Shown: positions 6,653 to 8,983 of the stretch, in pieces
Numbering within the stretch: the stretch's first letter is position 1
Layout: each line of letters starts with the position of its first letter
NCBI GenBank assembly: GCA_031081675.1
Contig: JAVHLZ010000025.1
Location: 1-34,849, forward strand
From: Armatimonadota bacterium
GTDB lineage: Bacteria; Sysuimicrobiota; Sysuimicrobiia; Sysuimicrobiales; Kaftiobacteriaceae
Reading direction: 5' to 3'
Length of the DNA stretch: 34,849 bases
Position numbers and translations under genes: made by a program
Notes under the pieces: generated by a model
What the model saw: the letters and a program-made list of their open reading frames with translations, nothing else
The model's database searches: none
Told to the model about the DNA's origin: nothing

Positions 6653-7243
6653 GTGACCACGATGACTGCCGACCTGGCCGCGGCCCTGGCGGGCTACCTG
6701 GCGGGCAGCGTCCTGCCCGGGGAGATCGCGGTGCGCCGCCTGCGGGGCGCCAGCGCCGCCGACCTGCATGACAATCCCGGCGGCGCGGGGACCTGGCGCC
6801 TGCTGGGCCCCCGGACCGCCATCCCGGTGATCGCCCTCGACATGGCCAAAGGGGCTCTGGCGGCCTGGCTGGCGGGTCGGTATGCGTCCTCTCCCCTCTC
6901 CTATGCCTTCATCGCCACATCGGCGGTGGTGGGCCATAACTGGCCGGTGTACTTCCGGTTCCGGGGCGGGCGTGGGCTGGGGCCCGCGGCCGGTGCCTTG
7001 GCGGTCATCCACCCGCAGGTGTTCCTGATCTGCTTCCTGGTCGGCGGCCTGGCCGGGCTGCTGACCCGGTGGGTGCCGACCGTGGGAATCGTGGCCCTCC
7101 CCCTGATGCTGCTCGGGCTCGCCCGGGAGGGTGATCCGCAGGCCCTGCTGGCGGCCACCTGCATCTCCGCCGTCGTGGGCGTCCGCCAGCTGCCCTGGCT
7201 GTACACCCGGCTGAAGGCGCGCCTGGGGGCCGCCCACCCCTGA
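6653..7243 (+). CDS. Divergent PlsY-like acyl-phosphate:glycerol-3-phosphate acyltransferase
   Basis: A polytopic membrane protein of about 196 residues of the PlsY family, which transfers an acyl group from acyl-phosphate to glycerol 3-phosphate, the first step of phospholipid synthesis. Family features are an early GSxxxG-like GSVLPG and the strong motif GHNWPVYFRFRGGRG (canonical GHxWPVFxxFKGGKG), with about five hydrophobic segments. The second motif, usually GSGNxGATN, is degenerate here (DNPGGAGTW), and the GVAT after the GGKG block is changed to GLGPA. It may therefore be a specialised paralogue with altered activity. The start could be GTG 6653 or ATG 6662; GGCGGGGG at 6647 and the -10 at 6637 fit either. 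The DegV gene follows 8 bp later in the same direction. Confidence 0.75.
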   Translation: MTTMTADLAAALAGYLAGSVLPGEIAVRRLRGASAADLHDNPGGAGTWRLLGPRTAIPVIALDMAKGALAAWLAGRYASSPLSYAFIATSAVVGHNWPVYFRFRGGRGLGPAAGALAVIHPQVFLICFLVGGLAGLLTRWVPTVGIVALPLMLLGLAREGDPQALLAATCISAVVGVRQLPWLYTRLKARLGAAHP

Positions 7244-7251
7244 GGCGGGCC

Positions 7252-8106
7252 ATGCCTCCGCCCGTCGCAGTTCTCACCGAGAGTACCGGAGGAGTCCCTC
7301 CCGATCTCTGCCGGGAGCTGGAGATCGGCATCGTTCCCGTGTGGATCGTCCACAGGGGGCGCAGCTATCGCGACGGCGTGGACGTGACGCCGGAGCAGTT
7401 CGACGGGTGGCTGCGGGAGGGCCCTCCGTACCCCACCACGTCGGCTCCTTCGCCGGCGGACTTTCTGGACGCCTACCGGGCCGCCGCCGCGCGCGGGGCG
7501 GCGGAGATCGTGGTGCTGGCCCTGCACGCGGGCCTGTCGGGTTCGTGGCAGAACGCGCACCTGGCGGCGGCCGACTCGCCCGTCCCGGTGCACGTGGTGG
7601 ACACCCGCACCGCCGCCGCCGCCGAAGGCCTGCTGGTGGTAGAGACCGCGCGCCGGCTGCGGGCCGGAGAGACCACCGCGCAGGTTCTGCGGTGGCTGGA
7701 GGGGGCCCGCTTCCGGGCACGCCTGGTGGCGGCCGTCCCCGACCTGCGCCACCTCGTGCGCAGCGGACGGGTCCCCGGTCTTGCCGGGACGCTCGCTGAC
7801 CGGGCGGGGGTGAAGCCGCTGTTCAGCCTCGCTGGAGGCACCATCCGTCCCGCCGGGGTGGCCCGCACCCTGGAGGGCGTCCGCAGGCGCCTGGTAGCCG
7901 GTCCCCGGCGGGACCGCTCCCGGACGCGCCGGCTGCTGGTGGCGGTCACGCACGCGGACGCGCCGCTGGAGGCCGACCTGCTGGCGGCGAAGCTGCGGGA
8001 TGACGTGCGCCCCGATGAGCTGTGGGTGGTCCCCTTCACCCCGGTGATGGCGGCCCACACCGGACCGGGGGTGCTGGGGGTGGCGTGGCTGGGCCTGTCC
8101 GATTGA
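7252..8106 (+). CDS. DegV family protein (FakB-type fatty-acid-binding protein)
   Basis: A 284-residue DegV protein. Members bind a single fatty acid and present it to the kinase FakA for phosphorylation. The N-terminal AVLTESTGGVP, the PTTSAPSPADF block (about 62-72), HAGLSGSWQNA (about 92-102) and DTRTAAAAEGLL fit the ligand-binding domain. HLVRSGRVPGLAG and the later VKPLFSLAGGTIRP fit the second domain, and the C-terminal AAHTGPGVLGVAW is the conserved closing motif. Length is normal. It is 8 bp downstream of the PlsY-like gene, so cotranscription is likely, and its stop is one base from that of the convergent DAK2 gene. Fatty acid binding is family knowledge; ligand preference is unknown. 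Confidence 0.88.
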   Translation: MPPPVAVLTESTGGVPPDLCRELEIGIVPVWIVHRGRSYRDGVDVTPEQFDGWLREGPPYPTTSAPSPADFLDAYRAAAARGAAEIVVLALHAGLSGSWQNAHLAAADSPVPVHVVDTRTAAAAEGLLVVETARRLRAGETTAQVLRWLEGARFRARLVAAVPDLRHLVRSGRVPGLAGTLADRAGVKPLFSLAGGTIRPAGVARTLEGVRRRLVAGPRRDRSRTRRLLVAVTHADAPLEADLLAAKLRDDVRPDELWVVPFTPVMAAHTGPGVLGVAWLGLSD

Positions 8107-8107
8107 C

Positions 8108-8983
8108 TCAGGCCGACCGGACCCGGGTGACGGTAAACTCTTCTACGGCTCCCAGGGCGCCCAGTTCCCGCACCGCCACCTCCGGGGAGGCGGTGTGCAG
8201 GTGGATCCGGACCAGGCCTTCCTGCTCGGCGACGATCACCGCATCTCCCAGGTGGCGCAGGGCTGCCGGAGAGACCGCCGCATGGCCGGCCCGCACCACC
8301 ACCTGGGTGCAGTAGACGGGCCGGACCGCCTGGGGCGCCGCCGGGGCCGCCGCCGTCGCCGGCGCGGCCAGGGGCAGAGGTTCTTCCGCCCCCGGCTCCA
8401 TGGCGGTGGCGAGGGCCTGCAGGAACACCACCAGCCCGGCGGCGCCGGCGTCTACCACCCCGGCGGTCCGCAGCACCTCCAGCTGGTCGGGAGTGTGGGC
8501 CAGAGCGACCCGGGCCGCCGCGGTGGCGCCGCGCAGCGCCTCCGGGGCGGTGGCGCCCTCCGCGCCTGCGGCGGCGGCGTCGGCCACCGTCAGGAACGTC
8601 CCCTCCACGGGATGGGCAACCGCCCGCCGCGCCCGGTGGGCGGCCCGGCGCAGGGCGTCGCGGATGACGTGGGCTCCCGCGGCCGTCACGCCCGCAAATC
8701 CCTCCGCCAGCCCGCGCAGGAACTCCGCCAGCAGGACTCCGGAACTCCCGCGGGCGGAGCGGAACGCGCCCCGGGCGAGGGCGTGGCTGACGTCGTTGAG
8801 CTCCGCCGGCACTCCCCGCGCCTCGGCCACGGCCGCCTCCAGGGTCAGGGCCATGTTGGTGCCCGTGTCGTGGTCGGCCACCGGGAAGACGTTGAGGGCG
8901 TCCAGGCTCTCCCTCACCCGGCGCAGCACCGCCAGAGCGGCCTCCGCCCCCGCCAGCAACGCTTCGCCCGTCAGAGGACGCAT
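8108..8983 (-). CDS. DAK2/DhaL-domain kinase, short FakA-like
   Basis: A 291-residue protein resembling the front half of FakA, the ATP-dependent fatty acid kinase that works with DegV proteins. The DhaL domain (about 1-195) has LNVFPVADHDTGTNM (30-44; canonical PDGDTGTNM) with metal-binding Asp37 and Asp39 kept, SARGSSGVLLAEFLRG (76-91), PVEGTFLTVADAA (125-137) and GVVDAGAAGL (175-184). An Ala/Pro linker (197-221) leads to a middle domain starting YCTQVVV (224-230) with RIHLHTASP (259-267). Full-length FakA proteins are about 550 residues; the C-terminal domain is absent here, although the gene ends cleanly against degV. The Gly to His38 change in the metal motif is unusual. Function as a fatty acid kinase is likely but not certain. 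Confidence 0.8.
   Translation of the reverse strand: MRPLTGEALLAGAEAALAVLRRVRESLDALNVFPVADHDTGTNMALTLEAAVAEARGVPAELNDVSHALARGAFRSARGSSGVLLAEFLRGLAEGFAGVTAAGAHVIRDALRRAAHRARRAVAHPVEGTFLTVADAAAAGAEGATAPEALRGATAAARVALAHTPDQLEVLRTAGVVDAGAAGLVVFLQALATAMEPGAEEPLPLAAPATAAAPAAPQAVRPVYCTQVVVRAGHAAVSPAALRHLGDAVIVAEQEGLVRIHLHTASPEVAVRELGALGAVEEFTVTRVRSA

Follow-up and report, generated by a model that had tools for sequence, protein, structure and literature searches.

What is made by three adjoining genes of a bacterial genome that belong to the PlsY, DegV and DAK2 families? The window, by which we mean the whole stretch of 34,849 nucleotides analysed here, carries all three within 2.4 kb, and the initial annotation read them as one line of fatty-acid capture, activation and first acylation. 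What the FakA, FakB and PlsY families do is known from the literature; the coupling of these three proteins and a change of acceptor are what we infer. Our preferred reading, to which we give a probability of about one half, is that a FakA_NL/FakB pair generates acyl-phosphate and passes it to a transferase of the PlsY family whose acceptor pocket has been rebuilt.

The first gene (6653..7243, + strand) encodes a PlsY-family membrane protein (PF02660, 1.5e-25; phmmer 2.1e-15 to 5xj5) whose residue table reveals an altered glycerol-3-phosphate (G3P) pocket. Its start may be GTG 6653, ATG 6638 or ATG 6662, the last of which best matches the relatives. Eight bases further on the same strand follows a DegV/FakB fatty-acid carrier (7252..8106, +; PF02645, 8e-59; TIGR00762, 218 bits against a cut-off of 99.7), and given this gap the two genes probably form one operon. 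The third gene (8108..8983, − strand) encodes a DAK2 protein of 291 aa that we class as FakA_NL (PF02734, 1e-29; PF21645 FakA-like_M, 6e-10; no PF13684). It is convergent with the DegV gene, and a single base separates the two stop codons. Both the three family assignments and this one-base convergent arrangement had been proposed in the initial annotation; Pfam and NCBIfam confirmed the former and the coordinates the latter. Upstream of the trio, two adjoining homocysteine S-methyltransferase-like genes (PF02574; 4691-6572, −) both score under the NCBIfam cut-offs.

The host genome is 2.29 Mb long and 97.8% complete. Profile searches find one DegV and one Dak2 match in it, both in the window, and two PF02660 genes: the copy described above, with 90 bits, and a canonical plsY that scores 166 bits and lies on another contig. 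Canonical genes elsewhere would have weakened the initial annotation, and here the answer is split, as there is no second fakA or fakB candidate but there is a canonical plsY. The contig of the latter also carries plsX, in the order rsmD-coaD-DUF177-plsX-fabH-fabD-fabG-acpP-fabF. Random placement would bring the sole Dak2 gene, the sole DegV gene and one of the two PF02660 genes into 2.4 kb with a probability of roughly 1e-5.

The adjacency of the three families, whose conservation the initial annotation had proposed to examine, is found again in relatives. Among 43 genomes of the phylum, seven (including the host of the window) have a DegV gene, and in all seven its neighbours are an additional PlsY-like gene and a FakA-type DAK2 gene that includes the FakA middle domain. 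Five genomes, namely the host and four of family f3, have the PlsY and DegV genes in one direction with DAK2 convergent; in f3 the 3' ends of the convergent genes overlap, by 4 or about 68 bases. The other two (families f4 and f5) have DegV, PlsY and a full-length FakA in this order and in one direction. The trees of all three genes unite the window and f3 copies in a single clade (support 100/98 for PlsY, 100/98 for the kinase and 100/100 for DegV). None of the genes flanking the trio in the window recur beside the f3 copies, and nine other genomes of the host's own family contain neither Dak2 nor DegV. As far as sequence comparison tells, the window/f3 trio has been kept together while the surrounding genes changed, and it forms a real and conserved module, probably for acyl-phosphate.

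DAK2 proteins of three further genomes (G018, G024 and G026) were considered as additional Fak kinases and rejected since these genomes have no FakA_M or DegV; they are probably DhaL. When named genomes were scanned with the DAK2 protein, the only match was a distant Streptomyces homologue.

Next, we consider the kinase. The initial annotation called it FakA-like, which is correct for the DAK2 and middle domains but overlooked that the FakB-binding C-domain is missing. The DAK2/FakA_N domain keeps Asn32, Asp38 and Asp40, and the middle domain keeps Cys240 (YCT), His282 and His284 (HLH). PF13684 (FakA_C, FakB-binding) is absent both from the window protein and from the three f3 orthologues scanned, and the window protein also scores below the TIGR03599 cut-off. 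We therefore regard the window kinase as FakA_NL-type rather than full FakA. An AlphaFold model computed without an alignment reached a pLDDT of 63.8, and the Foldseek match of this low-confidence model is FakA. Unfused FakA_NL proteins are also found in two unrelated genomes (L071, with DegV directly after it, and L072).

In Staphylococcus aureus, FakA is built of an N part that binds ATP, an L part for dimerization that holds Cys240-His282-His284, and a C part that binds FakB (PMC9136124). An engineered S. aureus FakA_NL is active, with a Km for FakB of 0.99 compared to 0.09 uM, about 11-fold higher (PMC9136124). Two competing models exist for Fak catalysis: either the kinase domain receives the acid straight from FakB, or FakB hands it over to a FakA_C/FakA_N pocket (PMC11617999). 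The module shares with the FakA/FakB systems of Gram-positives (S. aureus, S. suis, B. subtilis YloV/DegV) the DAK2 ATP domain, the Cys-His-His middle domain and a DegV with Arg173, and differs from them by having no FakA_C, a single FakB and an adjoining PlsY-like gene. FakA_NL and FakB of the window are likely to be an acyl-phosphate generator. Such a natural kinase/FakB pair lacking FakA_C would allow a direct test of the rival models using two small proteins: if the window pair works, the FakA_C/FakA_N pocket model is inapplicable to it. In other FakA proteins we observed replacements of Cys240 (catalytic/zinc), by Asp in L021, L022, L086 and L088 and by Glu in L005 (Streptomyces) and L098.

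The DegV protein of the window keeps the FakB-type residues, namely Arg173 (SGR) and the Thr, Ser and His of the motifs PTTS, GLSGS and AAH, which we take to be the carboxylate-site residues. In the f3 DegVs the terminal His is gone and little remains of the GLSGS loop; Arg173 is retained throughout. These losses suggest that the carried ligand may differ between genomes. The role of Arg173 in FakB has been described (PMC9136124).

The PlsY-like protein, to which we now turn, is not a canonical PlsY. In the Aquifex aeolicus PlsY, the phosphate of G3P is held by Ser35, Arg45, Lys104 and Asn180 and its 2-OH by Ser142 and His177, while the acyl-phosphate is held by the loop-3 backbone, His92 and Thr41 (PMC5700162). 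Mutagenesis found most of S35, K104, S142, H177 and N180 to be critical; replacing Thr41, which touches the acyl-phosphate carbonyl, by Ala costs about 95% of the activity (PMC5700162). Compared to this enzyme (5xj5), the module protein shares the sequence family, His92, Arg45 and the Gly-Gly loop (GG102-103), as well as Asn37, and differs at five of the six G3P side chains: Ser35 is replaced by Asp or Glu or falls in a gap, and the others read K104>R, S142>G, H177>Q and N180>W. In the acyl-phosphate site His92 and the Gly-Gly loop are kept and Thr41 is Ala; Val or Ala at this position also occurs in many canonical PlsYs of the phylum. Residue equivalence in the last helix, where the phmmer alignment ends, was taken from a multiple alignment anchored on a conserved arginine. 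An alignment-free AlphaFold model of the protein (pLDDT 52.5) was left out of the analysis.

T41>A, K104>R, S142>G, H177>Q and N180>W are identical in all five close orthologues, which also have in common the motifs NPGGAG.WR, GHNWP, FRGGRGL and VRQLPW. The f3 orthologues are 51-57% identical to the window protein, and f3 pairs give a dN/dS of 0.19-0.26. A pseudogene was rejected on the basis of this dN/dS and the conserved signatures, and the protein looks like a maintained, different pocket rather than a decaying one. By contrast with the module copy, the canonical PlsY of the same genome has the complete set of six G3P residues, and so have 25 of the 28 PlsYs in the canonical clade of the phylum (one of the three exceptions is due to a masked stretch).

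The PlsYs of the f4/f5 and f98 modules have lost most of the same G3P residues by other changes, and those of f104 in part. Elsewhere, away from Fak genes, PlsY paralogues whose G3P residues are altered are numerous (L102-L132); a common type among them (DGNPGA.N) carries Asp at position 35 and, in many cases, Glu or Asp at position 180. With so many noncanonical PlsYs unlinked to Fak, the change of pocket is not unique to the module. A further, undiscovered role has been proposed for the E. coli PlsY (PMC11633183).

PlsY and Fak genes are also neighbours beyond the phylum. The FakA middle domain is present in 58 of the 386 genomes surveyed, and 51 of these 58 lie outside the phylum; in nine of the 51, as counted by eye from coordinate tables, FakA or DegV has a PlsY gene no more than 5 kb away. 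We found no published account of this adjacency in the open-access literature searched. Five of the nine (L066-L070) have a FakA_NL-DegV fusion of ~600 aa followed by a canonical PlsY. Like the module, the fusions combine a kinase devoid of FakA_C, a physical tie to DegV and an adjoining PlsY; unlike it, they are a single chain, form their own group in the kinase tree and adjoin a PlsY with all G3P residues.

Two others, the f98 clusters (G134, G265; L062, L063), contain FakA, DegV and noncanonical PlsYs as the module does, and one of their PlsY types has a similar signature (DNPGxAGxWR, GHNWP, FRGGxGL, RQxP). They differ in that all genes are co-directional, FakA is full length and PlsY is present in two or three copies. 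The last two (L064, L065) have the order FakA-PlsY-DegV. One origin for all PlsY-Fak clusters is unsupported: the PlsYs of f1/f3, f4/f5, f98, f104 and the fused type group separately, with weak deep branches. We also observed an 834-aa single chain (L075:4581-7082) that contains DAK2, FakA_M, FakA_C and DegV.

Taken together, a kinase devoid of the part that presumably holds the carrier and a PlsY devoid of most residues that grip G3P suggest that fatty acids are probably activated here in a non-textbook way. In the mechanism we propose, DegV (FakB) would hold a free fatty acid, which the two-domain FakA_NL would phosphorylate on DegV with no need for a FakA_C domain. The acyl-phosphate would then pass to the adjoining PlsY-family membrane protein, which would transfer the acyl group to an acceptor other than sn-glycerol-3-phosphate or bind G3P differently. 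We consider this outcome the most likely because residues of the acyl-phosphate site are kept while the acceptor pocket is rebuilt. Nonetheless, given the activity lost by the A. aeolicus enzyme upon T41>A, even the use of acyl-phosphate by the module PlsY is not certain. A conserved non-G3P pocket in Fak-linked PlsY-family proteins suggests that acyl-phosphate may have acceptors besides G3P.

The initial annotation instead implied a salvage line of its own: Fak would supply acyl-phosphate, with which the PlsY-like protein would acylate G3P to lysophosphatidate. On the side of capture and activation, the FakA and FakB catalytic residues are present. The conserved linkage, the retention of Arg45 and of acyl-phosphate-site residues, and the 25% of activity left in the A. 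aeolicus PlsY with K104R alone (PMC5700162) are all in favor of the complete line. So are the full-pocket PlsYs beside the five FakA_NL-DegV fusions, from which a Fak-PlsY coupling plausibly exists. Ordinary first acylation, on the other hand, is unsupported: the genome has a canonical plsY and a plsX at another place, and of the six side chains that contact G3P only Arg45 is left, four of the five replacements being the same in every one of the five orthologues. Furthermore, the module PlsY reaches 82 bits with TIGR00023 (cut-off 137.2) and falls below every curated NCBIfam PlsY cut-off. We consider a salvage line that ends in lysophosphatidate unlikely, with perhaps one chance in a few.

A less probable alternative, which we would think doubtful, is that the PlsY-like protein is not an acyltransferase at all and either anchors the soluble Fak pair at the membrane or hydrolyses excess acyl-phosphate. 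This would fit the loss of acceptor-site residues and Thr41, and soluble Fak partners are reported to work at the membrane (PMC9136124). Yet R104, G142, Q177, W180 and their surrounding motifs are conserved under purifying selection, suggesting a specific pocket rather than a scaffold.

It is more improbable still that the ligand of DegV and DAK2 is something other than a long-chain fatty acid, and that the PlsY linkage reflects another acyl or carboxyl substrate. The changed GLSGS loop and terminal His of the f3 DegVs point in this direction, as do the additional fabH, SDR and alcohol dehydrogenase genes that adjoin the kinase gene in two genomes (genus g12); against it, the window DegV keeps the FakB residues, Arg173 is kept throughout and the kinase triad is intact.

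Finally, chance neighbours with unrelated roles, for which the opposite strand of DAK2 might speak, can practically be dismissed, since the trio is found, in two arrangements and with unrelated flanks, in seven genomes of the phylum and its adjacency recurs in distant lineages.

The Fak pair may also matter where PlsX is missing. PlsX is a source of acyl-phosphate for PlsY, as the kinase pair of the module would be; a FakA/FakB generator from B. subtilis has already been combined with PlsY (PMC13400652). PlsX is an unrelated enzyme that uses acyl-ACP, and it is present in the host genome and missing from three genomes with the module (G016, G019 and G012). In these three, no PF02504 match is found genome-wide. 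Apart from plsX, their fab cluster is complete between rsmD and fabF, and rpmF lies between DUF177 and fabH with no space left for plsX; the order in L173, L174 and L175 is rsmD-coaD-DUF177-rpmF-fabH-fabD-fabG-acpP-fabF. Fak may be the source of acyl-phosphate in these genomes. Genomes having FAS-II and Fak and no PlsX would be candidates for a PlsX-free acyl-phosphate route. That FakA_NL/FakB both feeds a PlsY-family transferase with a non-G3P acceptor and is able to replace PlsX is a combination we advance only tentatively. As a statistical correlate of the module, plsX loss was rejected: plsX is absent from 3 of 7 module genomes compared to 5 of 36 others (p = 0.11, not significant), and those five are without Fak.

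In the g12 genomes (G016, G019) the extra fabH, SDR and zinc alcohol dehydrogenase genes immediately precede DAK2 and share its strand (L147:13719-16557 in G019). We considered whether they are the canonical fab cluster and rejected this, as the full cluster is on another contig. The canonical PlsY of g12 has K104R, N37Q and N180S/P.

PlsY frames are also found fused to other sequence. In L082:777-2582 (G012), L083:948-2681 (G013) and L128:1865-3523 (G062), PlsY is followed by a C-terminal Rossmann domain in proteins of about 550-600 aa. This domain resembles acyl-ACP reductase or the N-terminal part of PigE (48-62 bits with TIGR04058, far below the cut-off, and 103-108 with PigE). PlsY frames of fusion size are present in the plsX-less genomes G012, G014, G020, G023 and G036.
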